From the IMG/VR virus record IMGVR_UViG_3300048591_000794, positions 1 to 41,633 of that record: 41,633 nucleotides of DNA. One strand, given 5' to 3'. The notes under the pieces are model-generated. The model had not been told where the DNA came from. It saw only the letters and a list, made by a program, of their open reading frames with translations, and did no database searches. Shown one piece after another: positions 3,288-41,633 of this stretch. The position numbers and the translations under genes were made by a program. Position 1 is the first letter of the stretch. Every line of letters starts with the position of its first letter. The DNA comes from a virus.

Positions 3288-3529
3288 GGCCTGCTCCGTC
3301 TGTAGGCGTACGCGCTGCTGTCGATCCAGAGCAGGGCGCCGACGGCGATCGGGGCGGCGGCGCGGTGGATCTGGGACGTCCCCCACCATATCAGCGCGAG
3401 GGCCCCCGCGGCTTGGGTGACCCTGGTTGCGGCGCCGGCGGTCTTGCCCAGCCCGGCCGCGGCGGCGCGGAGCCGGTGCCGCGTGTGGGGGCCGTGGTGC
3501 TGGGGGTCGGTCGACCGCGCGGTTGGCAT
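3284..3529 (-). CDS. small membrane protein upstream of portal
   Basis: An 81-aa protein with a basic N-terminus followed by one or two hydrophobic segments (about residues 38-50 and 58-72, GALALIWWG and APIAVGALLWI). Function not recognised. It overlaps the portal start by ATGA, so it is translationally coupled. GGGAG lies upstream of its ATG. A copy of the 13-bp motif falls at codons 3-7, and a promoter-like sequence sits just upstream. Phages often carry a tiny membrane protein here; a holin role is conceivable but unsupported. Confidence 0.65.
   Translation of the reverse strand: MPTARSTDPQHHGPHTRHRLRAAAAGLGKTAGAATRVTQAAGALALIWWGTSQIHRAAAPIAVGALLWIDSSAYAYRRSRP
3510..3522. repeat. 13-bp motif copy GTCGACCGCGCGG
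   Basis: Exact copy of the genome-wide oriented motif. It lies inside codons 3-7 of the 81-aa gene and 27 bases downstream of the putative -10 box at 3549-3554. Confidence 0.8.
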
Positions 3530-3548: not shown

Positions 3549-3576
3549 AGTCTATCCGGGTTCAGAGCACGGTGAA
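3549..3576 (-). promoter_or_regulatory. putative promoter for the 81-aa gene, portal and protease
   Basis: Reading leftward, TTCACC (3576-3571) and TAGACT (3554-3549) are separated by 16 bp, 20 bases before the ATG at 3529. The -35 lies inside the end of terL. The -10 region GGATAGACTAG closely matches the one at 18433-18438. Confidence 0.45.
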
Positions 3577-5208
3577 CGGGCTTTCCTCGATGTCGCCGGC
3601 GTCCTCGTCGAGCATCAGGCGGCCCAGGGCCATCAGCAGGGCGACGATCATGTCGATTTTCCTGGCGTCCTGCCGCTCCGCCTTGACCGGGCGGATGTCC
3701 TCGTTTTCGTTGACCCTAACCTGGACGTTGCCCGCCTGCCAGTTGGCGACGGGGTGGCCGCCGTGGCGGATGCCGCCCTCGCTGAGGAGCCTCTCGAGAT
3801 ACTTGCATGGCCCGGTGAAGTTGACGATCGTCTGGGTGAACGGGGTGATGTTGATGCCCTCTTTCATGAGGGTGGTGATCGTGTGGACGGCGTTGTGGGG
3901 GTCGCAGGCGATGCTCCGGAACGGGGTAACCTCGTGGACGGCCATGATGTGGGCGAGGATGCAGTCGTAGTCGATGATCGACCCCTCGGTGGCGTAGATG
4001 GCCCCCTCGGCGTGCCACTGGCTGTAGGGGACGAAGTCGCGTGTTTCCCGCTCCCGCATCCCCTCCTCCGGGATCCAGACGTCCCAAAGGACGTCGATGG
4101 TGCCGTCCTCGAGCCGGAACACCCGTGTCAGGGCCGCGGTGTCGCGGGTGCTCGCGAGGTCGAGCCCGGCCCAGCACTCGTGGCCTGCGTGGTCCTCGGG
4201 CTGGCCCCCGCAGGCGTCCCACTGCTCGCGCTTGATCCAGACGGTCTCGCTCTGCGTCCAGATGTTCAACCTGTACCGCTTGAAGGTGTTGGTCTTGGAC
4301 GGGGTGTTCTCGGCCTCGATGAAGTCCTGGCGGAAGTCCTCGAGGGCGATGGTGTGCCCAAGGCTCGGGTTCGCCTTGAACCACGTGGCTTCGGCCTTCC
4401 AGTCGTCGTCGGTCCCGGCGGCGCGGATGTACGGGAAGAAGGCGAGGTCGTGGTACTGGCCGTCGGCGACCCGTTCGGCGTACTGGTGCTGTTCCCAGCA
4501 GATGGAGTTGCGGTCCCATCCGGCGGTGGTGATCGCGACCAGGAGGGGCTGGCGCCTGGCGGAGCCGGCGTACCGGAGCACGTCCCACATGAGGCGGCTC
4601 TTGTGGGCGTGCAGCTCGTCGATCACGGTCGCGCTGGCGTCGAGGCCCTCCGAGGTAAAGGTCTCTCTGGAGAGGGCGACGAGGCTGCTGCCGGTGGCCT
4701 CGAAGGTGATGGTCTTGGTGCTCTTGTAGGGCCTGGTGACGGCGGCCAGGTCCGGCTGTGCGGCGCAGAAGGCCGCGGCTTCCTCCCAGACGATGCCCGC
4801 TTGTTTCCGGTCGGTGGCGGCAAGGAAGACGCGGGCCCGCTGCTCGCCGTCGCCGATCAGCATGAAGTTGGCGATCGCGGCGGCGAGGGTGGACTTGCCG
4901 TTTTTCTTCGGGATCTCGATGTACGCGACGCGGAACCGCCGGGTGCCGTTCGGTCGTTTCCATCCGAAGAGGGGGCCGAGGACGTCCTCCCGCTGCCAGT
5001 CGAGGGGGTCGAATGGTTGGCCGGCGAGCTCGCCCTTGGTGTGGCGGAGGAACTGCCGGCAGAAGAGGATCGGGCGGTCGGCGGCGGCCCGGTCGAAGTA
5101 GTAGCCCTGGCAGGCCGCCCTCTCGTCGTTCTCGCTCTTGATCTGGTCGAGCCATCCCTCGTCGCGCGCGCGGCGGCGTGCGGCCTGGGGCGTGAGTTTG
5201 TCTGCCAT
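3562..5208 (-). CDS. terL: terminase large subunit
   Basis: The 548-aa DNA-packaging motor has both expected halves. The ATPase has the Walker A variant PKKNGKST (residues 100-107) and Walker B with catalytic Glu in TVIDELH (194-200). The RNase H-like nuclease has acidic residues D350 in GLDLAS, D436 in ACDPHN and D519 in KIDM. It matches the Terminase_1 (PF03354) layout seen in HK97-type phages and is full length. It starts 4 bases after terS ends and precedes the portal operon, as usual. The nuclease active site looks intact. Confidence 0.97.
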   Translation of the reverse strand: MADKLTPQAARRRARDEGWLDQIKSENDERAACQGYYFDRAAADRPILFCRQFLRHTKGELAGQPFDPLDWQREDVLGPLFGWKRPNGTRRFRVAYIEIPKKNGKSTLAAAIANFMLIGDGEQRARVFLAATDRKQAGIVWEEAAAFCAAQPDLAAVTRPYKSTKTITFEATGSSLVALSRETFTSEGLDASATVIDELHAHKSRLMWDVLRYAGSARRQPLLVAITTAGWDRNSICWEQHQYAERVADGQYHDLAFFPYIRAAGTDDDWKAEATWFKANPSLGHTIALEDFRQDFIEAENTPSKTNTFKRYRLNIWTQSETVWIKREQWDACGGQPEDHAGHECWAGLDLASTRDTAALTRVFRLEDGTIDVLWDVWIPEEGMRERETRDFVPYSQWHAEGAIYATEGSIIDYDCILAHIMAVHEVTPFRSIACDPHNAVHTITTLMKEGINITPFTQTIVNFTGPCKYLERLLSEGGIRHGGHPVANWQAGNVQVRVNENEDIRPVKAERQDARKIDMIVALLMALGRLMLDEDAGDIEESPFTVL

Positions 5209-5212
5209 GGGG

Positions 5213-5728
5213 TCAGCCTGCCGAGGTCGCCGGTGCCGGCTTGCCGTTGATCCGCAGGAAGCCCTCGAGCGGGCTCTGCGGGCTCAGTGTAGGGGCGACG
5301 GCGATCCTGGTCCTGGCGCTCGGGGTGAGGCCGTACTCGAGCTCGATGCGGAGGAGCTGGTCGGCCAGCTTGGCGGCGATGTTGACCTGGGGCCATTGCT
5401 GGACGTACTTCGGCTGGCCCTTCTCGTCCTTAATGGTGTAGACCTCGCCGTTGGTCTGGAGGAACTCCTGGACCCGGCGCCACCTGGCGTGGATGGAGCA
5501 GTAGCGGGCGATGATGGCGGCGTCGGCCTTGGTGGCCAGGCCCATGCGGTCCAGCAGCCTGAAGGTGCGGTGCCAGCACTCGACGGCAATCTCGTCGGTG
5601 AGCCAGGTCGGGATCTGCGGCTTCCCCTCGGGCGGCTGGGGCTCCGCGGGGTTCATGGCCCGCTTCCGAGGGTTGCCCCGCAGCTCTCGCAGGGTGCTCG
5701 GGGCCGGCTTCGGACCTCGTGGTGCCAT
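5213..5728 (-). CDS. terS: terminase small subunit (P27 family)
   Basis: The 171-aa DNA-recognition component of the packaging terminase begins with the typical P27-family MAPRGPKP and LRGNPRKR, followed by Pro-rich LTDEIAVECWHR and a helical central domain (DAAIIARYCSIHARWRRVQEFL). The C-terminal half carries the LRIELEYGLTPSARTRIAV segment shared by the family (PF05119). The ATG at 5728 has no ribosome binding site, but a TATAGT box ends 6 bases before it, so the mRNA is probably leaderless. The pac/cos site should be nearby but cannot be located by eye. Confidence 0.93.
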   Translation of the reverse strand: MAPRGPKPAPSTLRELRGNPRKRAMNPAEPQPPEGKPQIPTWLTDEIAVECWHRTFRLLDRMGLATKADAAIIARYCSIHARWRRVQEFLQTNGEVYTIKDEKGQPKYVQQWPQVNIAAKLADQLLRIELEYGLTPSARTRIAVAPTLSPQSPLEGFLRINGKPAPATSAG

Positions 5729-7724: not shown

Positions 7725-8155
7725 CGGCCCCGGCACGGCAGTCCGCCCTTGGTGTGGTGTGGTGTCGGCGCCCCGTGGGCGTCGGTGCTGACGATGCGCC
7801 TGCAGGACCCGCACCGGCACAGGCCGGTGCGGAGCATGCGCTCTCTCGTCGCCAGGCCCTCATCGGTCAGGTACCATCGGTCGAGGAGCGTGGCGGGGAT
7901 CCTCGCCATCTTCCGGTCCATGTCGTCGGTGAGTTCCTTGGCGGCTGTCCCGAACTTCTCGAGGTCAGTCAGGGCCATGTAGATGTTGTAGATGTCCGGG
8001 GCGCCGTCCATGATCTCATGGATGCCCTGGATGTCGGTCGGCCCGTGCTCGGCAAGATGGTGCACCAGGATGCGGTGTGCGGGGCTCTGGAGGATGGCGT
8101 TGGCCTTGGCGAGGGTTTGGTCGATGTCGTGGGCGAGCTGATCGGTCGGTGTCAT
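7721..8155 (-). CDS. winged-helix-like protein with C-terminal Cys cluster
   Basis: The 144-aa protein has a first half (AHRILVHHLAEHGPTDIQGIHEIM, then IYMALTDLEKFGTA, then RWYLTDEGL) that reads like a winged-helix DNA-binding domain of the MarR/ArsR general type. The C-terminus has CRCGSCRRIV (about residues 113-122), a small metal-binding knuckle. A regulatory role is inferred. It is one of two genes preceded by the duplicated 89-bp leader (the other is 8242-9018), so the two are probably co-regulated. ATG at 8155 with AAAGGAA upstream. Confidence 0.65.
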   Translation of the reverse strand: MTPTDQLAHDIDQTLAKANAILQSPAHRILVHHLAEHGPTDIQGIHEIMDGAPDIYNIYMALTDLEKFGTAAKELTDDMDRKMARIPATLLDRWYLTDEGLATRERMLRTGLCRCGSCRRIVSTDAHGAPTPHHTKGGLPCRGR

Positions 8156-8241
8156 GTTCGGTTCCTTTGTGCTCCGGCCGGCCTATCCCGGCCCGGGCCC
8201 TCGGGTCGACCGCGCGGGCTCGGCCCTCGGGCGCGGGTCGG
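8153..8241. repeat. 89-bp duplicated leader, copy 1
   Basis: Matches 9016-9104 at 88 of 89 positions. It spans the whole intergenic region from the stop of the 258-aa gene to the ATG of the 144-aa gene. It contains a 13-bp motif copy (8205-8217), the self-complementary tracts GGCCGGCC and GGCCCGGGCC, and the ribosome-binding leader GAGCACAAAGGAACCGAACATG shortened (coding strand, ending at the ATG). Confidence 0.92.
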
Positions 8242-9018
8242 TTACCGCCGGCGGTGGATCGAGCAGGTCCCGTCGCAGTAGGTGGTCTGGCCCATCTGGT
8301 CGTGGGGGCCGGCGGGGTGGCCGTCGCACTGGCTGGCGAGCCATGCCCGCGCCGCTTCTCGACCGTCGCGGGCGGCGTCGCCTCCGGCGGCGGCTTCGAC
8401 GATCCTTTCGAGCAGGCCGCCGCTGTCGGGCCCGTTGTAGATCTGGTCGTGCGTCATCCCTCGCCCGAGGAGGTAGTCGGCGGCGGCGTTCACGACGGCC
8501 CTGGCGGCTGGCGTTTGGGCCGCGGGGAGCACGGTCTTGGGCGCGCACACCCCGCCGGTCGCCCCCTCCTCGTACTCCTCGCGCTCCGCCATGGGCATGG
8601 CAATCCACGCCGACCAGTCGCCGGTGAATCCCTGATCGCGGCGAGCGTACTCGTAGGCGGCTCGGTCGTCGCTTCCGCCGCGGGTGATGGTCTCGGCCGC
8701 GTCGAGCAGCGCGTCTCGCATGCGCGGACACTCGGCGATGTCGGCGGAGCAGGCCGCATTCTCAACCGTGTGGGCCGAGTTGGGCATGCCGCAGTGTGGG
8801 CAGTCCTCCTGGTGCTCGTCGGCGGCGGCGGATGCGGCCAACTGCCTCGCGTTCCGCTGCTCCTCCAGCTCGGCGTCGGGGTCGAACGCCAGTCGCACAC
8901 GCCGCGCGGCGCACTCCTCGCAGTACACGCCGGTCCCCCGCTCGTGCGTGCAGTGGGTCTCGTGCTCGCAGCTGGCCGAGTCGCACTGGGTTGTCATGTC
9001 ATGCTTCACGGTTTTCAT
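8242..9018 (-). CDS. hypothetical 258-aa zinc-finger protein
   Basis: Not assigned to a family. The N-terminal third holds a dense set of Cys/His residues (CDSASCEHETHCTHERG, then YCEECAARR, then CPHCGMPNSAH), consistent with two or more zinc sites. Another CDGTCSIH cluster is at the C-terminus. The middle is helical and Ala/Glu-rich. The gene is flanked on both sides by the 89-bp duplicated leader, whose copy 2 supplies its ribosome binding site (AAAGGAA). Confidence 0.65.
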   Translation of the reverse strand: MKTVKHDMTTQCDSASCEHETHCTHERGTGVYCEECAARRVRLAFDPDAELEEQRNARQLAASAAADEHQEDCPHCGMPNSAHTVENAACSADIAECPRMRDALLDAAETITRGGSDDRAAYEYARRDQGFTGDWSAWIAMPMAEREEYEEGATGGVCAPKTVLPAAQTPAARAVVNAAADYLLGRGMTHDQIYNGPDSGGLLERIVEAAAGGDAARDGREAARAWLASQCDGHPAGPHDQMGQTTYCDGTCSIHRRR

Positions 9019-9104
9019 GTTCGGTTCCTTTGTGCTCCGGCCGGCCTATCCCGGCCCGGGCCCTCGGGTCGACCGCGCGGGGTCGGCCCTCGGGCGCGGG
9101 TCGG
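9016..9104. repeat. 89-bp duplicated leader, copy 2
   Basis: Same element as 8153-8241 with a single C/G difference. It runs from the ATG of the 258-aa gene to one base before the stop of the 107-aa gene. It includes the 13-bp motif at 9068-9080 and AAAGGAA before the start. Confidence 0.92.
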
Positions 9105-9573: not shown

Positions 9574-10863
9574 CTACTCGAGGCGGACCCCGGGCTGGCG
9601 CTCGCCGTCGGCGTTGCACCGCTCGGCCTCGACCGCCGTCAGGGCCTGGTAGCGGCGGACGATCACGTCGCAGTAGCCCGGGTCGATCTCGAACCCCCAG
9701 CACCGGCGGCTCATCTGGTCGGCGGCGATCAGGGTGCTCCCGCTGCCCAGGAAGGGGTCGAGAACGATGTCGCCCGGTCTGGTGCTCCTGGCCATGAGCT
9801 CGGCGAGCATGCCGACGGGCTTCATCGTGGGGTGGTCCCGCGAGGCCTGGGGCCTGTCGAAGAGCAGGACGCTGTCGGTGGTCGGCGGCGGCGCGAGGTG
9901 GGTCTGGCCCCGTTCCTCGGGCGTCCAGCCGTAGAACACGGTCTCGTGCTGGTAGTGGTAGTCGGTGCGCCCGAGCACCAGGGCTTGTTTCTTCCAGACG
10001 AGGGTTTGCTGCCAGACGCCCTGGTCGCGCAGGGCCCGGGCGAAGGTGAGCATGGTGGTGCCGCTGGGCGCGAAGACGTACCAGACCGCCCCGGGGCGGG
10101 TGTAGGTCTTGGCCAGGTCGAACGCCGTGCGGAGGAGGGTGTCGAGGCCCTCGGGGCTGTCCCCAGCGATCGTCAGGGCGTCCTCGGTGCCGCCCTTGTA
10201 GTTGATCCCGTACGGGGGGTCGGTGATCACGGCGGCCGGTCGCGCCTGGTCGGCGGGGTCGGCGTGCACCAGGCGTATCCATGGGTGGCAGTCGTCGGCG
10301 CACGACGCGCACAGCAGGCGGTGCCGCCCGAGCCTCCAGAAATCCCCCGCCCTGGTGGTTGGTTTCTTCGGGCGCTTCGGCGTTTCCCCCTCGGTGGTGT
10401 CCGCCGGCGCCGGCGGGGCGGGCGGGCCGCGGAGGGCCTCGGCCTCCGCCGCGGTGAACCCGAGGGCCTCGAGGCCGGTGCTCTCGGCGGCGAGCTGCTC
10501 GAGCTGGTGGGCGAGGACCTGGATGTCCCAGGAGCTCAGCTCGGCGGTGCGGTTGCTGGCGATGGCGTAGGCCGCGGCGTCGACGTTGGCCTCGTCGACG
10601 ATGACGGCGGCGATGTACCTCCACCCCAGGTTCCGCGCGGCGTCGAGGCGGGCGTTCCCGGCCCTGACCACCATGCCGGCCTTCTGCACGATGATCGGCA
10701 CCCGCTGGCCGTACCGCTTCAGGGTGGCCTCGACGGCCTCGAGGCTCCGCTCGTCGTGGCTCCTGGCGTTCTCGGGGTCCTCGTTCAGGAGGTCGGTTTC
10801 GACGGCGAACTGCCGCAGGGGCGCGGCGATGTGGCTCAGGTCTTTCGTGGGTGTGGTGGGCAT
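9574..10863 (-). CDS. ParB-N domain fused to DNA methyltransferase (DPPY)
   Basis: The 429-aa protein has an N-terminal ParB/Srx-like domain (residues ~10-110, with the signature AGNARLDAA at 68-76 and IASNRTAELSSW). After a Pro-rich linker comes a beta-class amino-methyltransferase. Catalytic motif IV is TDPPYG (214-219), the SAM-binding motif LDPFLGSGST lies near 368-377, and GFEIDPGY near 390-397 supplies the acidic residue contacting SAM. DPPY points to N6-adenine methylation. Such fusions are common in phages, where they may protect DNA from host restriction. All key residues look intact. A paralogue with lost motifs lies 3 bp upstream. Confidence 0.92.
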   Translation of the reverse strand: MPTTPTKDLSHIAAPLRQFAVETDLLNEDPENARSHDERSLEAVEATLKRYGQRVPIIVQKAGMVVRAGNARLDAARNLGWRYIAAVIVDEANVDAAAYAIASNRTAELSSWDIQVLAHQLEQLAAESTGLEALGFTAAEAEALRGPPAPPAPADTTEGETPKRPKKPTTRAGDFWRLGRHRLLCASCADDCHPWIRLVHADPADQARPAAVITDPPYGINYKGGTEDALTIAGDSPEGLDTLLRTAFDLAKTYTRPGAVWYVFAPSGTTMLTFARALRDQGVWQQTLVWKKQALVLGRTDYHYQHETVFYGWTPEERGQTHLAPPPTTDSVLLFDRPQASRDHPTMKPVGMLAELMARSTRPGDIVLDPFLGSGSTLIAADQMSRRCWGFEIDPGYCDVIVRRYQALTAVEAERCNADGERQPGVRLE

Positions 10864-10866
10864 GGC

Positions 10867-12114
10867 TCAGCCGGGGTGGATGGCGGTGGTCTGGCCGGCG
10901 GTGGTGGCCTGCGCTGTGGACCTGGTGAGGGCCTGCCATCTGGCGACGATGGCCTCGGCCTCGCCGGGGCTCGGGGTGATGCCCAGGGCCCTGGCCCCGA
11001 GCTGTTCCGCGGCGATGAAGACCCCGCCGGCCCCCGCGAATGGGTCGAGGACCAAGTCCCCGCGCGCGGCGCTGTTGCGGATGGCCTTGGCGTAAAACTC
11101 GACGGGCGTGGCCCCGTCGGGCTCGCCGATCCGTGGGGAGAGCTCCCAGGTGCTCGTCTGCTTTCGGTCCGGAGGCTCCCGGCGGTCGGCGCCGGGCTTC
11201 CAGCCGTAGAGGATCGGCCGGTGGCGGTAGTGGTGGTCCTCGTGGCCTAGGTCGAGCTTCTGGCTGATCAGGGCGAGGGTCTGCCGCCAGATGTCGCCGA
11301 GCTCGCTGGCGGTGTCGATGAAGGCCGGGCCTGGTGGCGCGGTGAGGTACCAGCAGGCGCCCGCGGCGGAGTGCTCCGCGGCCAGGGCGATCGCCAGGGC
11401 GAGCACGGTGGCGGCCGGCTCGGTGTCGCCGTCGGCGTTGACCTGCAGCCGGTTCTGTTGGGGCGGGTCGCTGACCAGGAGCCTGGCCAGGTCCTCGCCC
11501 ATAAGGGCCTGGTAGGTGCCGCGGTGCGATGGGCTCCCGATCACGAGCCGGTGGTCGCCCATGGTGACGACGGAGCCGGTGCGGAGGGTGGGTTTCTCGG
11601 GCTGGGGCTGCGGGCCGGGGGTCTCTCTCTCCTCCCGGGCGGCTGTCGACCGCGCGGCCTTCGGGCGTGGGGCCGCCGGCCGGGATGCGGCGATGATCTG
11701 GTCCATCTCCGCGGCGGTGTACCCGGGGACTGAGGCCTGCCCGGCGTCGCGGAGGGTGGTCATGGTGGCGCCGAGCCTGGACTCGTCCCACCCGCTCAGC
11801 TCGGCGACGCGGTTGTCGGCGATGGCGAACCCGCGGGCGGTCTGCTCGTCGTCGTCGAGGACGGCGGCGGCGACGTGGGTCCACCCCAGGCGTCTGGCGG
11901 CCTCGAGCCTGGCGTTGCCGGCGGAGACGGTCATCGTGTCCCGCCTCACGACGAGGGTCTCCCGCTGGCCGAACCGCTTGAGGCTGGCCATGGCCTGCTC
12001 GATGCTGTGCTCGTCGTGGCGCCTGGCGTTGTTCGGGTCGGGCTTGATCGTGCCGATCTCGACCGCGAGGGCGCGGAGGGGTTCGGCGATGTGGCTGAGG
12101 TCGGGGGCGGTCAT
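10867..12114 (-). CDS. degenerate paralogue of the ParB-methyltransferase (probable pseudoenzyme)
   Basis: The 415-aa protein parallels the 9574-10863 product along its length: DLSHIAEPLRALAVEIGTI, AGNARLEAARRLGW, an Ala/Pro linker, then a methyltransferase fold. The ParB-like part is well kept, but catalytic motif IV reads SDPPQQ (215-220) instead of DPPY. The SAM-contacting acidic position in the GFEIDP equivalent reads GITPSP (378-383), replacing Glu by Thr; LDPFAGAGG (from 356) survives. The frame is fully open and tightly spaced, so the gene is maintained. It may have become a DNA-binding or regulatory partner of the active copy. A 13-bp motif copy lies in the linker at 11645. Confidence 0.85.
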   Translation of the reverse strand: MTAPDLSHIAEPLRALAVEIGTIKPDPNNARRHDEHSIEQAMASLKRFGQRETLVVRRDTMTVSAGNARLEAARRLGWTHVAAAVLDDDEQTARGFAIADNRVAELSGWDESRLGATMTTLRDAGQASVPGYTAAEMDQIIAASRPAAPRPKAARSTAAREERETPGPQPQPEKPTLRTGSVVTMGDHRLVIGSPSHRGTYQALMGEDLARLLVSDPPQQNRLQVNADGDTEPAATVLALAIALAAEHSAAGACWYLTAPPGPAFIDTASELGDIWRQTLALISQKLDLGHEDHHYRHRPILYGWKPGADRREPPDRKQTSTWELSPRIGEPDGATPVEFYAKAIRNSAARGDLVLDPFAGAGGVFIAAEQLGARALGITPSPGEAEAIVARWQALTRSTAQATTAGQTTAIHPG

Positions 12115-18157: not shown

Positions 18158-18230
18158 TTGCGGGGGCGGGAATCGAACCCGCGACCTCCGGATTATGAGT
18201 CCGGTGGGCTGACCGCTGCCCTACCCCGCT
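18158..18230 (-). tRNA. tRNA with CAT anticodon (Met, initiator Met or Ile2)
   Basis: A 73-base cloverleaf: acceptor AGCGGGG with CCCCGCA, D stem GGGC/GCCC, anticodon stem CCGGA/TCCGG with loop CTCATAA, five-base variable loop AGGTC, T stem GCGGG/CCCGC with loop TTCGATT, discriminator A. Position 1-72 is an A-A mismatch. An unpaired 1-72 is an initiator hallmark, but the anticodon stem lacks the initiator's three G-C pairs, so the identity is ambiguous. No CCA is encoded (TTC follows). Confidence 0.93.
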
Positions 18231-20554: not shown

Positions 20555-21859
20555 TCAGAAGAGTCGGTTGGTTTCGGCCCCGACCCGCCTCGCGGCGAGG
20601 CTGATGTACTCGGGTTTCAGCTCGATGCCGACGAATGCCCTGTCCCACTTGCAGGCGACGGCCCCGGTGGTGCCCGATCCCGTGAAGGGGTCGAGGACGG
20701 TGTCGCCCGGCGCGGAGCCCGCGAGGATGCATGGCGTTATCAACGCGGGCGGGTAGGTGGCGAAGTGGGCCTCGGGGTAGGGGGCGGTGGCGACGGTCCA
20801 GACGGATCGTCGGTTGCGGGTCTCCCTTGGACCGATGTTCGCCAGTCCCGCTTTGGTGCGCATCCTCTCGTCGCCCCTTGAGTGGGCGTCGGCATATTTG
20901 TTCGAGTCCAACAGCCCAGAACCCTCGGGGAAACGTGCTGGCTCGGCGATCGCCTCGGCGTCGTAGTAGTAATCGAATCCCCGCCATCGCGCTACGGTCG
21001 CGTCGGGGTCGTCGTCGGTAGGTGCCGGCAGGCGCTCGGACAGATCTGGGGTGCGCGACCACTCCGCGGTGTCTCTCGCCCGCCAGACTTTCGCGTTGCC
21101 GGACTTGCTCAGCAGGAACATGTACTCGTGCGCCTTCGTGCATCGGTCGGTTACGCTCTCGGGCATGGGGTTGGGCTTGTGCCAGATGATGTCCTGCCGC
21201 AGCCACCAGCCGTCGGCCTGGAGGGCGAGCGCGACCCGCCACGGGATGCCGACCAGATCCTTCGCCTTGAGCCACGGCGTGTTCTTGAGCGAGCCGGTCT
21301 GCGTCCCCTTCGGGTGCGCGAGGATCTGCCTGGCGCTCAGGCATGTTTCCTCACTCGACGCGCCTTCAAGAGTGCCGGGGGTGAAGTCGCCGCGGCTCTG
21401 TGCGCCCCACGACCCCGCGTAGCTATCCCCCAGGTTCAGCCACAGCGTCCCGTCGTCCGCCAGCACCCGCCGCACCTCGCGGAACACCTCGACCATCGAC
21501 GCGATGTACGCATCGGGCGTGGGCTCCAGGCCGAGCTGCGCGTCGATCCGGCGGGCTCCGCACTTGCCGCAGGTGCCGCGGTATGGCACGACGATCGAGC
21601 GTTCGTAGTTGTTCGATCCAGGGTTCGGGCGTCCGTCGTTTTTGAGGGTGGATGTCGCGCTTGCAGCCGTTCCCTTCACATGATCGCACCCATCATCCCC
21701 ACCCTCCCACTTCGCCGTGCCGTAATCCCGCAGCCCCCAGTACGGCGGGCTCGTCACGCAGCACCGGGCCAGCCCGTCTGGGAGCTGACGCAGGGTGGCC
21801 AGCGCGTCGCCCTGGTAGATCGTGGCCATACCGTCCGCGCTCTGCCACCTGTGGTTCAT
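20555..21859 (-). CDS. site-specific DNA methyltransferase (SPPY type)
   Basis: The 434-aa beta-class amino-methyltransferase has catalytic motif TSPPYWGLRDYG (36-47), the SAM site DTVLDPFTGSGTTGAVA (387-403) and FVGIELKPEY. S/TPPY motifs usually mean N4-cytosine, sometimes N6-adenine, methylation. An insertion of about 50 residues after motif IV carries DGCDHVKG and TCGKCGARR, which could bind zinc. All motifs look intact. No cognate restriction gene is present, so it is an orphan methylase, probably protecting the phage genome or affecting gene expression. Confidence 0.93.
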   Translation of the reverse strand: MNHRWQSADGMATIYQGDALATLRQLPDGLARCCVTSPPYWGLRDYGTAKWEGGDDGCDHVKGTAASATSTLKNDGRPNPGSNNYERSIVVPYRGTCGKCGARRIDAQLGLEPTPDAYIASMVEVFREVRRVLADDGTLWLNLGDSYAGSWGAQSRGDFTPGTLEGASSEETCLSARQILAHPKGTQTGSLKNTPWLKAKDLVGIPWRVALALQADGWWLRQDIIWHKPNPMPESVTDRCTKAHEYMFLLSKSGNAKVWRARDTAEWSRTPDLSERLPAPTDDDPDATVARWRGFDYYYDAEAIAEPARFPEGSGLLDSNKYADAHSRGDERMRTKAGLANIGPRETRNRRSVWTVATAPYPEAHFATYPPALITPCILAGSAPGDTVLDPFTGSGTTGAVACKWDRAFVGIELKPEYISLAARRVGAETNRLF

Positions 21860-22035: not shown

Positions 22036-22946
22036 CCCGCGCGCTCCCGCACCTGGTTGGGGTCGATGAGGCATGTGAGGCTCCTTCTGCGCTTGCGGCC
22101 CTCGGGGCCGGGGTCGGCGAGGACGGCCTCGAGGGTCATCCACCCGGGCGCTGCCCCGGTCCGCTTCAGGGTGCGATCCCGCCAGTGGGCCATGGCCCGG
22201 GTGGCGTCGGCGGCCCTGTCCCGGAGGAAGGCGGTGAGCCTGGCGTCGTCGGCGGCCTGCCGGCGCCAGGTGCGGGCCCAGGCATCTGGTGGCTCCACCT
22301 GCTGCCGGATGCACTCGGCGATGTAGCCGGCCGGTCTGGTCTTGGCGGAGGCGAGGGCCTCGTAGTGGTCGAGCCGCATCAGGTCGGTTCTGTCCGCCAG
22401 GGGCCCGGGGTTGTTGACCCCGAGCTGGGTCAGGCGGTCCATGATCTGCTCTGGGGTTCCCTCTGGGTGGTTCTTCTCGTCGTCTTCGCGCGCGACGACG
22501 ACGTGTTTCTGGGATGGATCAAGGACGGATCCCCTGACATAGCTATGGCACCCCCCCCCTGACATAGCTATGTCACCCCCCCCTGACAACTTGTCACCCC
22601 CCACCCCTGACAACTTGTCACCCCCCCCCTGACAAGATGTCACCCCCACCCCTGACAACTTGTCTGGGGTGTTTTGCCTAGCTTCGGTGTCCATGATGGT
22701 CAGACGGTAGCGGTTTGATCGGCCCTCCCGCTCGGTGATCTCGAGCATCCCGGCGGCCTCGAGGTCGCCCAGGAGGCGGGTGGTCTGGCGCTCGGACATG
22801 CGGATCTTCCTGGCCAGGCTCTGGACCGAGGGCCAGATGTCGCCCCCCTCGTCGTTGGCGTAGTCGGCGAGGGCGAGGAGGAGCAGCAGGGCGCTCCCCT
22901 TGGCGTCCGCCCGGTCCCAGACGGTGCTCATCACGCGGATGCTCAT
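22032..22946 (-). CDS. replication initiator (O-like, winged-helix) with internal origin
   Basis: The 304-aa protein opens with VMSTVWDRADAKGSALLLLL then IWPSVQSLARKIRMSERQTTRLLGDLEAAGML, the HTH_36-type winged helix of phage and plasmid replication initiators. The central part (residues ~94-138) is low-complexity DKLSGVG repeats because it is encoded by the iteron array 22535-22665, exactly the lambda gene O arrangement. The C-terminal part (PAGYIAECIRQQVEPPDAWA) resembles the helicase-loading tails of such proteins. It probably binds the iterons and recruits the host replisome. No phage helicase loader or polymerase was recognised. Confidence 0.85.
   Translation of the reverse strand: MSIRVMSTVWDRADAKGSALLLLLALADYANDEGGDIWPSVQSLARKIRMSERQTTRLLGDLEAAGMLEITEREGRSNRYRLTIMDTEARQNTPDKLSGVGVTSCQGGGDKLSGVGGDKLSGGGDIAMSGGGCHSYVRGSVLDPSQKHVVVAREDDEKNHPEGTPEQIMDRLTQLGVNNPGPLADRTDLMRLDHYEALASAKTRPAGYIAECIRQQVEPPDAWARTWRRQAADDARLTAFLRDRAADATRAMAHWRDRTLKRTGAAPGWMTLEAVLADPGPEGRKRRRSLTCLIDPNQVRERAG
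22535..22665. other. replication origin: six palindromic iterons separated by C-tracts
   Basis: Six sites at 22535-22550, 22560-22575, 22584-22596, 22608-22620, 22630-22642 and 22653-22665, spaced 22-25 bp. The first two are TGACATAGCTATGTCA (16-bp palindrome, one base off in the first). The other four are TGACAACTTGTCA (13-bp palindrome) or close variants. Spacers are runs of C with an occasional A. The array lies within the initiator gene. Confidence 0.88.
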
Positions 22947-34088: not shown

Positions 34089-35591
34089 CTACCCCAGCCT
34101 GGCCGTCTGGCCGTCGCGGATGTTGCGGTCGATCGAGGCGAGGTGGTCGTTCGTGACCTTGAGCTGCGGGTCCTCGACCTTAGCGGGCTTGGAGGTTGCG
34201 CCCGGGGTGCCGCCGAGGGCCATCCGCTCGAGCTGGACCTGGCGGAAGCTCGCGGTCTTGGCCGGCTCGGTGGCGGTGGCGGACTCGAGGGCGTCGCGGG
34301 CCTGTTGGACGGCCCGCCCGTGGGTTTCGAAGTCGATGAGGTTCTGCTCGAGCAGCTTGTTGAGCTCGTCGATGGCCTGCTGGTACTTCTCCATCGGGGT
34401 GCGGGTGGCGTTGAAGACCCGCTCCGCGGCCGATTCCATGGTTCGGAGGGCGTCGGCGTGGGCCTCGGCGGCCTCCAGGGCGGCGTCGGCGTCCTCGTCG
34501 AATGTCCGCATGTTCTCGCTGGTGGCGGCGATCTGGTCGGCGGTCTCCTGGGCGGCGTCCTGGATGGCGTTCATGGCGTTGACGACGTTGGCGCCCCAGT
34601 CCTGGCCCTCGAGGCCCTCCAGCTCGCGCTCCAGCTTCTGGATCTGGCGGTTGAGCTCGAGCAGCTCCCGGGGGTCTTTCCAGAGCCCTTCGAGGCCCTC
34701 GCGGGCTTCCAGGGCGGCGATTTTCATTCTGAGCCAGGCCTTGACGACGGCCTGGATGGCGTTTGCCGCGGTCCCGGCGGCGACGGTGGCGGCGGTCATG
34801 GCCTGTTCGGCGATGCCCGCGGCGCCCTTGCCCTGGGTGGCCCAATCGATGAAGGCCTGGGCGCCCGCGGCGATGAAGGGGGCGACCTGGACGGCGATCT
34901 GCCTGGCGAGGCCGTTGAAGAGCTCGCGGAGCTCGCTCACGCGGTCGTTCGCGGCCTCGATCTTTGAGACGTCCGCCCGGTCCAGGGCGAGCCCGAAGAG
35001 CTCTGCTTTTTGCTGCGCGTCCTCGAACGCCCCCGCCCCGGCCTGGAGGGTGTTCAGCAGCGTGACGCCGCTGCGGCCGAAGAGGTCGAAGGCGGCGGTG
35101 ACCCGGTCGGCCTGGCTGGGGAGGGCGTTAAGCCGCTCGCCGATGAGGCGGAACTGCTCGTCGGGGCTCATCCGCTTGAGTTCCTCGACGGTGAGCCCGA
35201 GCCTGGCGAGGGCGTCGGCCTGGGCGCCCGTGCCCTTCTCGGCGTCGCCGATGCTCTTGAGCATCTTGGCGATGCCCTTCTCGAGGTCCTCGTTCGAGGC
35301 GCCGGCGAGGTTGGCGGCGAGCTGGAGGCCGGCGAGTTTCTCGGTCTGGATGCCCAGGCGGTCGCTCGTCTTGGCGATCGCGTCGGCGGCGTTGAGCTGC
35401 TGGATGGTGAGGGCGGTGAGGCCGGCGGCGGCGGCGAGCCCGGCGGCGGCGCCGATCGCGCCGAGGACCTTGCCAACGCGGAGGGCCGGCCCGGCGAAGT
35501 TTTTCAGGGTCTGGCCGGCGCTCATGAAGGCCTTCTGGAAGGCCGCGGTCCGTCCGACGAGGGCGACGCTCAGCTTGGCGATGGTGGTCAT
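34089..35591 (-). CDS. tape measure protein
   Basis: The 500-aa tail-length ruler has the common N-terminal tape-measure domain (LVGRTAAFQKAFMSAGQTLK; LQLAANLAGASNEDLEKGIA; ADRVTAAFDLFGRSGVTLLN), hydrophobic Gly/Ala segments near residues 36-62, and a second half of long charged coiled-coil helices (EGLWKDPRELLELNRQIQKL; DADAALEAAEAHADALRTME). At about 1.5 angstroms per residue it implies a tail of roughly 75 nm, at the short end for siphoviruses. The start overlaps the T-frame stop by ATGA. Its place after the G/GT chaperones is canonical. Confidence 0.93.
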   Translation of the reverse strand: MTTIAKLSVALVGRTAAFQKAFMSAGQTLKNFAGPALRVGKVLGAIGAAAGLAAAAGLTALTIQQLNAADAIAKTSDRLGIQTEKLAGLQLAANLAGASNEDLEKGIAKMLKSIGDAEKGTGAQADALARLGLTVEELKRMSPDEQFRLIGERLNALPSQADRVTAAFDLFGRSGVTLLNTLQAGAGAFEDAQQKAELFGLALDRADVSKIEAANDRVSELRELFNGLARQIAVQVAPFIAAGAQAFIDWATQGKGAAGIAEQAMTAATVAAGTAANAIQAVVKAWLRMKIAALEAREGLEGLWKDPRELLELNRQIQKLERELEGLEGQDWGANVVNAMNAIQDAAQETADQIAATSENMRTFDEDADAALEAAEAHADALRTMESAAERVFNATRTPMEKYQQAIDELNKLLEQNLIDFETHGRAVQQARDALESATATEPAKTASFRQVQLERMALGGTPGATSKPAKVEDPQLKVTNDHLASIDRNIRDGQTARLG

Positions 35592-35956
35592 GGTTTCGCC
35601 CCGCGGCCCCGCCTCTGGGCCTCAGCGTACTCGTGCATCCTGGCGTACTGCATGATAACCTCGCCGATCTCGACGGGGTCCATCTGCCGGGGCCGGGCCT
35701 CGCCCCACCAGTCGATGAGGAAGTCCCGCACCTTGAACGGCCGCTCGCGCTGCGGGTTGCGGTGGCGGTTGGCGATGGTGGCCGCCAGGTTGGCGGCGAG
35801 GATGTCGAGGCGGGCCGGTCCGATGGGGCTGATGGCGTCGTACGCCATCCAGTGGGCGAACTCGTCGGCGTCGATGTCCTGTTGCGCCCGGCGAACGCTT
35901 GTGCCCAGGGCGAGGGCGAGGGTGTACCAGAACCTCAGCCCCGGCCGGTTTCGGAG
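35588..35956 (-). CDS. tail assembly chaperone T extension (made by -1 frameshift)
   Basis: An open frame in the -1 phase relative to the G gene, with no good start or ribosome site of its own. Read after slippage at 35956-35962 it continues LRNRPGLRFWYTLALALGTS then ADEFAHWMAYDAISPIGP, which matches the lambda-T type (EFxxW-xxx-xxPxG) tail assembly protein. 122 residues would be added to the first 121 of G, giving a GT fusion of 243 aa. GT-type proteins guide tube polymerisation around the tape measure. The stop overlaps the tape measure start. Confidence 0.85.
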   Translation of the reverse strand, partial: LRNRPGLRFWYTLALALGTSVRRAQQDIDADEFAHWMAYDAISPIGPARLDILAANLAATIANRHRNPQRERPFKVRDFLIDWWGEARPRQMDPVEIGEVIMQYARMHEYAEAQRRGRGAKP

Positions 35957-36318
35957 TTTCCCTGCAGCTCGGCGATGGCGGTCTCGGTGAGGTGGTTGAT
36001 GCGGGCGGCGGCGTCGAAAATCCGGTTGATCGCCGACCCGTCCCGGGCTCCGAGTTTGTCGATGTCGCCGGGCTCGGTGAAGAGGCGGTTGCCCTCGGCG
36101 TCGCAGCATGTGTAGACGCAGACCCGCTGCTTCCCGCGGGCGATGTCGGGCTTGCCGTCGGCGCTCTTGGCGTAGTAGGTTTCTTCCTCGAACCGCCCGC
36201 GCTCGACGCCGTTCATGGTGCGCACGAACACGAACCCGTTCCACTCGGGGACCTCGACGCGCTCCATCTTGGCGTCGTCGGCCTCGAGGATGGCCTTGCG
36301 TGTCAGCTCGTTCGTCAT
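35935..36318 (-). CDS. tail assembly chaperone G
   Basis: The 127-aa protein begins MTNELTRKAILEADDAKMER; the middle FVFVRTMNGVERGRFEEETY and the C-terminal helix IDKLGARDGSAINRIFDAAARINHL are typical of siphovirus tail assembly chaperones upstream of the tape measure. Good ribosome site (GGAGGAA) before the ATG at 36318. The slippery heptamer near its end allows a minority GT product. Confidence 0.85.
   Translation of the reverse strand: MTNELTRKAILEADDAKMERVEVPEWNGFVFVRTMNGVERGRFEEETYYAKSADGKPDIARGKQRVCVYTCCDAEGNRLFTEPGDIDKLGARDGSAINRIFDAAARINHLTETAIAELQGNSETGRG
35956..35962 (-). promoter_or_regulatory. programmed -1 ribosomal frameshift site GGGAAAC
   Basis: On the coding strand the heptamer reads G-GGA-AAC in the G frame, the X-XXY-YYZ slippery form (lambda uses GGGAAAG). 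It lies seven codons before the G stop (35937-35935), and the -1 frame is open to 35588. A short GC-rich dyad (CCGGCCGG) follows within ten bases. Confidence 0.88.
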
Positions 36319-37396: not shown

Positions 37397-37816
37397 CTAG
37401 CTTGTGGCCGCCGAGTGGAAGAGTATAAACGACCTGGTGCACCTGTGCGTCCACCGGTCGCTGGCCTCGCCCCGTTCGCGGAAGGCGTCGTCCGCATCCC
37501 CCTCCATGCGGCAGTGGCGGATGTCCCGGCGGGCCCCCGCGGGGCCGGCTTTGTCCCTCCAGCCGTGCAGGGCGGCCCGCACGGCCTCGGCGGTGGCCTC
37601 GGCCTCGGCGTGCGTGGCGCCGTGGCAGTCGCAGTCGACGGTGTTCCGGGCGAGGCCGTCGGTGGCTCCCCCGAGGTGGAGGCCCTCGTCCCCGCTGGTC
37701 TTTGTGAGCACGATGTACGGGGTTGGTGCGCCCTGGGGGGCGCGCTGCACGAAGATCCGCCCGTCGGCGGCGCCGGCGCTGGTGAGCCGGTCGATGATGG
37801 CGAGCATGATGCTCAT
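37397..37816 (-). CDS. tail terminator / completion protein (DUF3168-like)
   Basis: The 139-aa protein has an N-terminal MSIMLAIIDRLTSAG, then IFVQRAPQGAPTPYIVLTKT (the PYI core strand of the family), HAEAEATAEAVRAALHGWRD helix and a C-terminal strand RSFILFHSA. This is the layout of gpU/DUF3168 proteins that cap the tail tube and join it to the head connector. ATGA overlap with the gp10-like gene. Position is canonical. Confidence 0.82.
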   Translation of the reverse strand: MSIMLAIIDRLTSAGAADGRIFVQRAPQGAPTPYIVLTKTSGDEGLHLGGATDGLARNTVDCDCHGATHAEAEATAEAVRAALHGWRDKAGPAGARRDIRHCRMEGDADDAFRERGEASDRWTHRCTRSFILFHSAATS

Positions 37817-38310
37817 CGGGCGGCCCTCCGGGCTTCCTCTTGCACCAGGGCTCTGAGCTTGTCCCGGATGATCCCCTCGAGGGCCTGGCGGCGGGATTCG
37901 AAGGCCTGGCGCACGAATGGGTGTTTGGTGTAGCCGTCCGTCCCTCGCTCCATGCGGTGGGCCCAGGCGCTGGCGGCCTCGCCGGATGGGAGCTCGGGGT
38001 CGTCCCGTGTGAAATTCCACCTGGGGCCCACGATCTCGACGACGGCGCCCGTGTTGGTGTAGGTCTTGCGGCGGCGGCCGATGCTCGCCTTGACGAGCCG
38101 CTGGATGGCGCGGTTCTGGCGCCGGGCGGCCTGGGCGGCCCGCCCGGAGGCTCCCGTGGCGTAGTCGGGGGTGGGGACGGCGGCCTTCATGGCCTTGTTG
38201 AGGTCCGCCGCGGCGGCGCCGATGACCTTCCTTGCGACCTGCCGCTGCACCCGCACCGGGAGTGCCTCGAGGGCGCGGATGGCTTCTCTGGTGCCCTCGA
38301 CGCGGATCAT
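37813..38310 (-). CDS. HK97 gp10-like head-tail protein
   Basis: The 165-aa protein shows MIRVEGTREAIRALEALPVR, the common opening helix of the HK97-gp10 family (PF04883). A basic region with YATGASGRAAQAARRQNR, the strand NTGAVVEIVGPRWNFTRDDP, and the family-typical HRMERGTDGYTKHPFVRQAF before a C-terminal helix follow. It joins head and tail. The start at 38310 has GGAGAG upstream and overlaps the previous stop by ATGA. Confidence 0.88.
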   Translation of the reverse strand: MIRVEGTREAIRALEALPVRVQRQVARKVIGAAAADLNKAMKAAVPTPDYATGASGRAAQAARRQNRAIQRLVKASIGRRRKTYTNTGAVVEIVGPRWNFTRDDPELPSGEAASAWAHRMERGTDGYTKHPFVRQAFESRRQALEGIIRDKLRALVQEEARRAAR

Positions 38311-38666
38311 GCTCTCTCCACGCACTGGAGCACGAGGGCGTCGTGGTCCTCGAGCTCGTCGCCGACGGCGGCGATGTCGAACAGGCGCTCGCGCTGGCCG
38401 TCGTGGTACCGTACCTGCATGTCGGTGGTGATGGTGATGCTGGGGATCCGTGGGGTGTGGACGCGGTGGGTGTGCATCGGTCGGGGCTGGTCCCCCTCGG
38501 TGGGCTCGGCGCCGGCGACGGGGGTGATCTTGGCGAAGGTGCGGGCCACGAGCTCGAACGGGCCGCCCTCGACGCGTTCGTTGAACGCGTTCGTGTCCGT
38601 CCCGGGCCGGATGAGGTCGACCGCGCGGTTGTAGTCGGCCCGGTTTCTTCTGCGGCGCCTGGCCAT
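38307..38666 (-). CDS. head-tail joining (head closure) protein
   Basis: The 119-aa protein has MARRRRRNRADYNRAVDLIR, then GPFELVARTFAKITPVAGAE and ITTDMQVRYHDGQRERLFDI, then DALVLQCVERA. This is the pattern of phage head-tail adaptors such as SPP1 gp16/PF05521, with the final short strand (IxxVxxxxxxxxxLxxxCxE). Located between the gp6-like connector and the gp10-like protein, as expected. A 13-bp motif copy lies in codons 13-17. Confidence 0.82.
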   Translation of the reverse strand: MARRRRRNRADYNRAVDLIRPGTDTNAFNERVEGGPFELVARTFAKITPVAGAEPTEGDQPRPMHTHRVHTPRIPSITITTDMQVRYHDGQRERLFDIAAVGDELEDHDALVLQCVERA

Positions 38667-38667
38667 G

Positions 38668-39255
38668 TCAGAGCCTCGGGATGGTCATCATGCCGACGAT
38701 CGATTCGTACGCTTGCGAGTAGGCCTGGGGCCCGGCGGCCGTGGCCTCGGGCTGCTGGTAGAGCTCGGCGGCGAGCATGGCGATGGCGGTGCGGTGCATT
38801 TCGTCGACGTCCGCGGCGGCGGCGCCCTCGCCGGCGGTGAAGGTGACGGTGACGGCGCGGGGCTGCTCCCTGGTCGACGGCCAGTCTTGGTTGTACGAGA
38901 GGCGGATCCGGCCGGGCAGGGTGTCGGTCTGCGCGGTGTAGGCCGAGGACGCGAGGGTCTGGCTGTCGCCGTTCTCGTCGACGTAGGCGATCGACGCGAC
39001 GGCGATCAGGGGGCTCCTGGGGGTGACGAGGTCCCCGTCCGGGAAGGCGTCGAGGGTCCATGTGTAGCTCGTCGTGACGAACGCGCGGAGGGTGCGCTCC
39101 TCGGTGAGCCTGGTGGCGGCCTGGATTTTCCTGGTGAGGAGGGCGTCCTGGTCGGGGTGGGGGATGCGCAGCTCGTCCCGCAGCTCCTGTGCGGTGAGCG
39201 GGTAGGTGACGGCCCCGGCGTAGGCGAGGCCCTGTCTGATGAGGTGCTGCTGCAT
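38668..39255 (-). CDS. head-tail connector (gp6-like)
   Basis: The 195-aa protein contains LTAQELRDELRIPHPDQDAL then LLTRKIQAATRLTEERTLRA, the helical signature of the gp6/gp15-type connector ring, followed by WTLDAFPDGDLVTPRSPLIAVASIAYVD shortened here to strands ending RIRLSYNQDWP. It forms a ring under the portal. I chose ATG 39255; an in-frame ATG at 39294 would place the hairpin at 39261-39290 inside the gene. Confidence 0.85.
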   Translation of the reverse strand: MQQHLIRQGLAYAGAVTYPLTAQELRDELRIPHPDQDALLTRKIQAATRLTEERTLRAFVTTSYTWTLDAFPDGDLVTPRSPLIAVASIAYVDENGDSQTLASSAYTAQTDTLPGRIRLSYNQDWPSTREQPRAVTVTFTAGEGAAAADVDEMHRTAIAMLAAELYQQPEATAAGPQAYSQAYESIVGMMTIPRL

Positions 39256-39260
39256 GAAGC

Positions 39261-39290
39261 CCCCCGGCCGGGCGGCGTCCCGGCCGGGGG
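39261..39290 (-). terminator. 12-bp perfect GC hairpin before the connector gene
   Basis: CCCCCGGCCGGG (39261-39272) and CCCGGCCGGGGG (39279-39290) form a perfect stem with a 6-base loop (CGGCGT) between the 145-aa head gene and the connector gene. No T-tract follows. Part of a set of three such hairpins in the structural operon. Confidence 0.68.
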
Positions 39291-39325
39291 TCACCGGAGG
39301 ATGCGGGCGTCAGCCCGCGGGGGTG

Positions 39326-39846: not shown

Positions 39847-41202
39847 TCAGGCGCGGGCGGCGATGCGCACGAAGGGGGACCGCTGCTTGGCGGAGTTGAC
39901 GGGGGTGAGGGCGCTCCGCCACCAGGGCGCGCCCGCGTTCCTCAACCAGAACTTGAAGGTTCGCTCGTGCTCGAGGAACCGGACATGGATGCTGGCGGCC
40001 TGGTTGAGGTTCTCGAGGGTGCCCTCGAGGTACTGGGTCCAGTTGCCGAGCATGATGTCGCCGGCGTCGCCGACGGTCTCGCAGTGGTCGGAGAAGGTGA
40101 TGGGGCGCCCGAGCAGCATGTCGGGGATGTCCTGCCCGGTGCTCGGGTGGAAGATCCCCGTGTCGGTGCCGCCGGCGGGGTTCTTCACGGCGGAGAGGGT
40201 CGGGATGCAGTCGGGGTTGGCGAGCCAGACGGCGTTCTGGTACCCGTAGCACTGGGCGCGGGCCTTGATCAGGTTCTCGTAGACGATCGTGTCCGCGGCC
40301 TGGCTACCTTCCTTGGCGATGGTGATCAGGCAGGGGCTGTTGTTGACGCCCAAAAACTCGCCGACGCCGGAGCCGTTGAGGTACTCGTAGATGAGGCGGC
40401 TGTTGAACTCGTCCTGGAAGCCGCTGGCGATCAGGGCGGAGAAGGAGATCGGGCTGTCGGCCAGCAGCTCCTCGCTGGCGTAGGCGGCGCCGAAGAGGCT
40501 GTAGGCGTGCAGGGTGACTTGCTCGAACTGCATGCGGCTGGCGGAGCCGGCCTTGGTCTCGAGGCGGCGGGCGACGGTCAGGCCGCCGCTGACGCTGGTG
40601 GAGTGGTCCTTGTCCACCCGCGCCGGGATGCGGACGATGGGCGTCGCCATGGGGATTTTGGTGGTGCCGAGGGTGAGGCCGGCGTCCTCGGGTCTGACCT
40701 GGAGCAGGGTGGGGGAGAATCCCTCGGGCAGGAGGAACCCGCCGTAGGCCTGGTCGCCCTCCTGCTGCTCGTCGCTGCCCGCGGCGGCGCTGACGCCCAG
40801 GCCCTGGAGGCGGTCGCTCATGCGGCCGGTGGTGCCGTAGGCGCGGACATCCTCGAGGAACTCGGCGTGGCTTCGGTACCCGCGGTTGGGGTCCTGGTCC
40901 CGGGCCTCGCCCAGAACCTTGACGCTGGGGTCCGCGCCCCTCGTGGTGGCGCTGGCGGGGCTGCCCGACGCGGGGTTGCTGCGGCGGCCGGTGGGCTCTC
41001 CGAGGCTCGTGGTGGCGGCCTCGGCGCGCTCGCGGCGCTTGATGTCGGCGGTCAGGGCCTCGGCCTGGTCGAGGGCCTGGTCGTGCTCGGTGGCCTCGGC
41101 CTCGGTGAGGTCTCTGGACTCGGCGTCGGCCTTGGCCTGGAGCTCGTTGGCCTTCGTGATGAGGGCCGCCCGCTGGTTGCGGAGTTTCTGCAGGGGGTTC
41201 AT
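39847..41202 (-). CDS. major capsid protein (HK97 fold)
   Basis: The 451-aa protein has an N-terminal ~110 residues of coiled-coil scaffold-like (delta) region (LRNQRAALITKANELQAKAD; DQALDQAEALTADIKRRE) that the S49 protease presumably removes. The capsid domain follows with YGGFLLPEGFSPTLLQ, KIPMATPIVRIPARVDK, YASEELLADSPISFSALI, GVNNSPCLITI, RPITFSDHCETVGDAGDIMLGNW shortened and a C-terminal VRFLEHERTFKFWLR. This is the PF05065-type major capsid layout and about the usual precursor length. ATG 41202 with AGGAGA. A promoter lies about 170 bp upstream, next to the repeat array. Confidence 0.95.
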   Translation of the reverse strand: MNPLQKLRNQRAALITKANELQAKADAESRDLTEAEATEHDQALDQAEALTADIKRRERAEAATTSLGEPTGRRSNPASGSPASATTRGADPSVKVLGEARDQDPNRGYRSHAEFLEDVRAYGTTGRMSDRLQGLGVSAAAGSDEQQEGDQAYGGFLLPEGFSPTLLQVRPEDAGLTLGTTKIPMATPIVRIPARVDKDHSTSVSGGLTVARRLETKAGSASRMQFEQVTLHAYSLFGAAYASEELLADSPISFSALIASGFQDEFNSRLIYEYLNGSGVGEFLGVNNSPCLITIAKEGSQAADTIVYENLIKARAQCYGYQNAVWLANPDCIPTLSAVKNPAGGTDTGIFHPSTGQDIPDMLLGRPITFSDHCETVGDAGDIMLGNWTQYLEGTLENLNQAASIHVRFLEHERTFKFWLRNAGAPWWRSALTPVNSAKQRSPFVRIAARA

Positions 41203-41348
41203 GGTGGTCTCCTGGGTTGGCCGGGGTGAACGCGGTCCTGGGCGCGCGGCCGCCGGCGTGTGTCGCTCGGTCTGCCTCGCGCCGGAGACTCTGCTCTGGT
41301 GCTGTGGCTGGTCCTCGCTGCGGGCGTTTGGCTCGGGCTCTGCGTGCC

Positions 41349-41361
41349 GTCGACCGCGCGG
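41349..41361. repeat. 13-bp motif copy at the capsid promoter
   Basis: Exact GTCGACCGCGCGG located 10 bases downstream of the capsid promoter's -10 box, overlapping or just after the expected transcription start (about 41364). Confidence 0.85.
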
Positions 41362-41370
41362 GTGTGCCTG

Positions 41371-41400
41371 ATGGTACATCGGCCCCAATACCGCGGTCAA
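41371..41400 (-). promoter_or_regulatory. putative late promoter of the capsid and tail operon
   Basis: TTGACC (41400-41395) and TACCAT (41376-41371) on the minus strand with an 18-bp spacer. The -35 lies 19 bases from the nearest repeat unit, so the tandem array occupies the upstream-activator position. The leader to ATG 41202 is about 160 bases and no ORF is apparent in it. Confidence 0.6.
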
Positions 41401-41418
41401 GAGGCCTGTCGCGGCCCG

Positions 41419-41629
41419 AGCAAACCCCCCGGCACACCCCCGGGTACAGCTTTCGTCGGAACCGGGTGCTCCGGGGCGCCAGCAGAACGCTGGGAAAGCC
41501 CCCTGGGTCCAGCGCGCAGAATCGGGCCCGAGCAAACCCCCCGGCACACCCCCGGGTACAGCTTTCGTCGAAACCGGGTGCTCCGGGGCGCCAGCAGAAC
41601 GCTGGGAAAGCCCCCTGGGTCCAGCGCGC
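41419..41629. repeat. 112-bp tandem direct repeat array, right part
   Basis: Units start at 41419 and 41531 (112 bp apart); the second runs to about 41629, four bases from the window end. The unit at 41531 is identical to the one at 21, and the unit at 41419 carries the TTTCGTCGGAA variant. With the left part there are five units in all, or four if the terminal ones are the same copy. Confidence 0.95.
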
Positions 41630-41633
41630 TCGG

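Follow-up and report, generated by a model that had tools for sequence, protein, structure and literature searches.

Head genes and a tandem array at the two ends of the record

The window analysed here is the entire virus record IMGVR_UViG_3300048591_000794 (G000; 41,633 bases), in which the genes of a phage head module lie towards both ends. Gene limits were taken from open reading frames and third-position GC, and no gene finder was used. Near the left end, all on the minus strand, are genes for the small terminase subunit TerS (5213-5728; phrog_83, PF05119), the large subunit TerL (3562-5208; phrog_9, E 3e-153; PF03354 and PF20441), the portal protein (1566-3389; phrog_12, E 7e-103) and an S49-like head maturation protease (614-1708; phrog_53, E 5e-52), whose true start may be further inside. 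A small minus-strand gene of 85 codons with a third-position GC of 0.88 lies between the protease gene and the array described below (293-550); PHROG and Pfam searches with it returned no family match, and the gaps of the relatives hold no clear counterpart. The major capsid protein (MCP) gene is the first past the array at the other end of the record (39847-41202, minus strand; phrog_10, E 2e-32), with virus-contig relatives that are 39-50% identical. On the same strand, PHROG and Pfam assign a head-tail adaptor (38668-39294), a head closure protein (38307-38666), a tail terminator domain inside an open reading frame at 37397-39061, a tail assembly chaperone (35935-36318) and a tape measure protein (34089-35591).

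Elsewhere the map holds an O-like replication initiator, an SNF2-type helicase, three methyltransferase genes and one tRNA-Met (CAT; 18158-18230, minus strand). Neither a lysis gene nor an integrase was recognised with PHROG and Pfam, and many genes are without a family match. Two of the methyltransferase genes (9574-10863 and 10867-12114) are adjacent and related, each matching ParB-like nuclease and DNA methyltransferase families, and their DNA copies are 69% identical over 300 nt; the third lies at 20555-21859. A 90-bp leader that includes a start-codon region is also present twice (8152-8241 and 9015-9104; 99% identical), before two neighbouring genes of unknown function.

Both ends of the record lie in tandem copies of a 112-bp unit, found in phase at 16, 128, 240 (partial), 41414 and 41526 in the register GCCCGAGC. 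The starts given by an earlier sequence-only reading (21, 133, 245 (partial), 41419 and 41531) are confirmed, each being the start in this register plus 5. The left part of the array (14-276) has two full units and a partial third that stops near 276 (TRF: 2.3 copies, 98% matches), and the right part (41413-41629) has 1.9 units of period 112 (TRF: 99% matches). The array is intergenic, between the 85-codon gene after the protease and the MCP gene, and direct reading of the sequence places a unique spacer (41203-41412) between array and MCP gene. A coding repeat was rejected, 112 not being a multiple of 3 and the array lying between genes. The full units vary at two sites only, G/A at 61, 173, 41459 and 41571 and T/G at 106, 218, 41504 and 41616. 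By these sites, the first and second right units are of types G,T and A,T, and the first and second left units of types A,T and G,G.

Alignment of the ends and gene order across the join

The two ends align at two offsets. At an offset of 41510, positions 14-119 are identical to 41524-41629, and with 106 nt exact a chance match is excluded; at this offset, the 13-nt left tail agrees with the unit at only 3 of 13 positions. At an offset of 41398, positions 1-231 align with 41399-41629, the flank of the right array included, with seven mismatches, so that the ends share 231 nt at 97%. Four of the seven fall in the first 14 nt and three where the units vary; these three argue against both ends being the very same units. 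Identity does not run exactly to the contig ends, as the outer 13 bases on the left and 4 on the right differ between them.

The sequence-only reading had described these outer bases as not matching the unit, as expected of a break in the repeat. This is literally true, but the left 13 bases are not arbitrary: the tail ATGTGGCCTGTGG (1-13) matches the unique flank of the right array, AAGAGGCCTGTCG (41399-41411), at 10 of 13 positions, with a p of about 2e-4 (the fraction of all 13-mers in the genome that do equally well; shuffling the tail gave an equal value). This resemblance weakens the view of the outer bases as arbitrary and strengthens the claim that the two ends belong together. Rather than break debris, the left tail is probably the flank of the array itself, in a version that has diverged or carries errors. 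At the right end, the last four bases (TCGG) read as the unit minus AGAA and are too short for a test.

If the left tail is a copy of the flank, some of the units at the two ends may have been counted twice. The ends may then be two versions of one array of ~2.35 units, with a map length of about 41,398. With a coincidental tail match and distinct copies at the two ends, the array would number at least 3.35 units and the map, with one unit shared, would be about 41,510 long. We lean slightly towards the single array of ~2.35 units, as a matter of judgement and not of a computed value.

In the unjoined linear piece the protease and capsid genes lie at opposite ends. Joining the ends restores the order TerS–TerL–portal–S49 protease–small gene–array–major capsid on one strand, and all assigned genes of the joined map lie on that strand. 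The sequence-only reading had proposed the part from protease through small gene and array to capsid, and that protease and capsid are neighbours is borne out by relatives. MCP or protease as a single query retrieved none; relatives were retrieved with a three-row MCP alignment. In 29 public loci with relatives of both proteins, a number that includes near-duplicates and is smaller in independent loci, the protease gene is directly upstream of the capsid gene and codirectional with it, with 72-1357 nt between the alignments. Examples are L080, L082, L084, L088 and L092 (MCP 39-50% identical), L041 and the annotated phage L078, and protease followed by capsid is the annotated order in phage OP596612. 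From protease stop to capsid start, the joined window measures 0.8-1.0 kb, within the range of the relatives. Since both order and distance fit, little or nothing would be missing at the join.

Completeness of the genome and origin of the contig ends

With the same sequence at both contig ends (1-231 and 41399-41629; 14-119 and 41524-41629) and a joined gene order that is unbroken in the 29 loci, the window is very probably a complete or near-complete phage genome. The earlier claim of one complete phage genome is thus well supported, by the gene order of relatives and by both ends lying in one array. We consider it highly likely that the record is the complete or all-but-complete genome of one tailed phage whose head is of the HK97 type, opened by the assembler inside the non-coding 112-bp array. 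The array would have been born of tandem duplication, by slippage or unequal recombination; the assembler would then have opened the contig within it, between the protease-side small gene and the major capsid gene, and both contig ends would be copies, possibly two alleles, of the one array. We infer that the repeat, rather than a physical DNA end, set the contig ends. The CheckV authors describe assemblers that break a circular template at an arbitrary point, so that a terminal repeat, often as long as the k-mer, is left behind (PMC8116208). In our models, an array with two identical neighbouring units had repeated k-mers at every tested k (55 to 141), and an array lacking the pair had them only up to a k of 99. 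Against the preferred explanation, this k-mer model suggests that the simplest de Bruijn break points fail to yield these exact contig ends.

The topology of the DNA is a separate matter, as circular replicative DNA, circularly permuted virion DNA and a circularising cos-ended genome would each give this contig. The circular or circularly permuted genome of the sequence-only reading therefore stands as one option, next to a linear genome with cos or pac ends that is assembled into a circle and gives an equal contig. The terminase families (PF03354/PF20441 and PF05119) alone were not taken as proof of headful, pac packaging.

Two other accounts of the ends were weighed. The contig ends could be the physical ends of linear virion DNA with long direct terminal repeats, to which the 231 nt common to both ends at 97% would correspond. 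Physical ends of virion DNA normally lie beside the small terminase gene, and in this phage we presume them to be near TerS, away from the array. The contig ends lie ~5 kb downstream of the terminase genes, in the middle of the head module, and their repeat consists of tandem units, which together make physical ends extremely improbable. Alternatively, there could be two separate arrays flanking an unassembled segment of one or more genes, with the genome incomplete. Assemblies commonly lose stretches between repeats, and the outermost bases on both sides differ from the unit. We nevertheless hold a lost segment to be very unlikely: the protease and capsid genes are neighbours in the 29 relatives with at most 1357 nt between alignments, room for a small gene at most, and the left tail looks like the right array's flank rather than new sequence.

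With an opening inside the array as the preferred reading, a record without exact terminal repeats becomes treatable as a complete genome, and closure fixes the phage map: transcription runs in one direction and the head module is complete. Tests for exact terminal repeats would probably overlook this record or flag it as a repetitive false positive. The trap is general: a tandem array that an assembler is unable to resolve opens a closed map and hides the closure from such tests.

Possible role of the array and comparison with known systems

The predicted RNA fold of the array is no more stable than that of shuffles on either strand (z-scores +0.2 to +1.6), an Rfam search of it gave no family and no gathering match, and no promoter-like site was found in it. 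Among more distant relatives, the unit was absent from virus contigs (38- and 20-nt exact patterns), from species genomes (27-nt pattern) and from plasmids and phages, and the more distant relatives sampled have no comparable tandem array before the capsid gene. In 294 genomes from one phylum there were two 32-nt GC-rich matches to the unit, which look fortuitous. The array probably stems from a recent tandem duplication whose copies have had little time to diverge, and it probably has no specific role; we infer that it has no sequence-specific one. With the closure correct, it could still be functional, as a site that acts in cis within the leader of the capsid mRNA, be it for protein binding, regulation, recombination or packaging. 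Its place between the protease and capsid genes suits such a site, and the near identity of the units, with two variable sites, fits selection but also recent expansion. The fold, the lack of an Rfam family, of a promoter-like site and of an array in relatives, and a better origin candidate at 22531-22664 inside the O-like initiator gene make this functional reading unlikely. It is quite unlikely that the array serves as a phage-specific site of regulation or recombination ahead of the capsid gene, with unit number and type varying between virions and the contig ends as two alleles.

The region at 22531-22664 has five to six iteron-like palindromic repeats of the GGGGTGACAnnnnTGTCAGGGG type, at intervals of 22-25 bp, inside the O-like initiator gene and directly after its DNA-binding domain, and is a likely candidate for the replication origin. 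Because this cluster sits in the initiator gene, the array was thought unlikely to be an origin.

The best match of TerL in cellular genomes is on a 3-kb contig binned in a Planctomycetota MAG (L158; 56% over 251 residues), which hints that the host is perhaps a member of the Planctomycetota. A separate motif, the 11-mer GCGCGGTCGAC, has 16 copies on the coding strand and a single one on the opposite strand, against 0.05 predicted by a third-order model. The minus-strand copies have their first bases at 1648, 3520, 7541, 8215, 9078, 11655, 12366, 16831, 20332, 23728, 27062, 31275, 37164, 38626, 39606 and 41359. The 13-mer CCGCGCGGTCGAC occurs 11 times on the coding strand and 0 times on the other. 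Since the 11-mer lies in different reading frames and between genes, it is more than a codon effect. Searched as a 12-mer, it is absent from the fetched relatives, and across the 7.3 Mb of the Planctomycetota MAG the pattern does not rise above background, with 23 matches vs 27 for a control pattern. It is an oriented, phage-wide DNA motif and possibly a regulator binding site, and may in this be comparable to the stoperators of mycobacteriophage L5, which are oriented binding sites.

In gene order and strand, the joined window is like the HK97-type head module of Bradyrhizobium phage ppBdUSDA122-1 (OP596612; TerS-TerL-portal-S49 protease-capsid), whose capsid protein is 29% identical to that of the window. 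The tandem array and the 85-codon gene ahead of the capsid gene set the window apart from its relatives in the HK97-type head-module group, in which they were not found. The placement of the iteron-like repeats at 22531-22664 inside the initiator gene is like that at the lambda origin. As in CheckV DTR contigs (PMC8116208), repeated sequence at both contig ends is read as a sign of a closed genome; unlike in those contigs, the repeat of the window is inexact at the contig ends and consists of tandem units.
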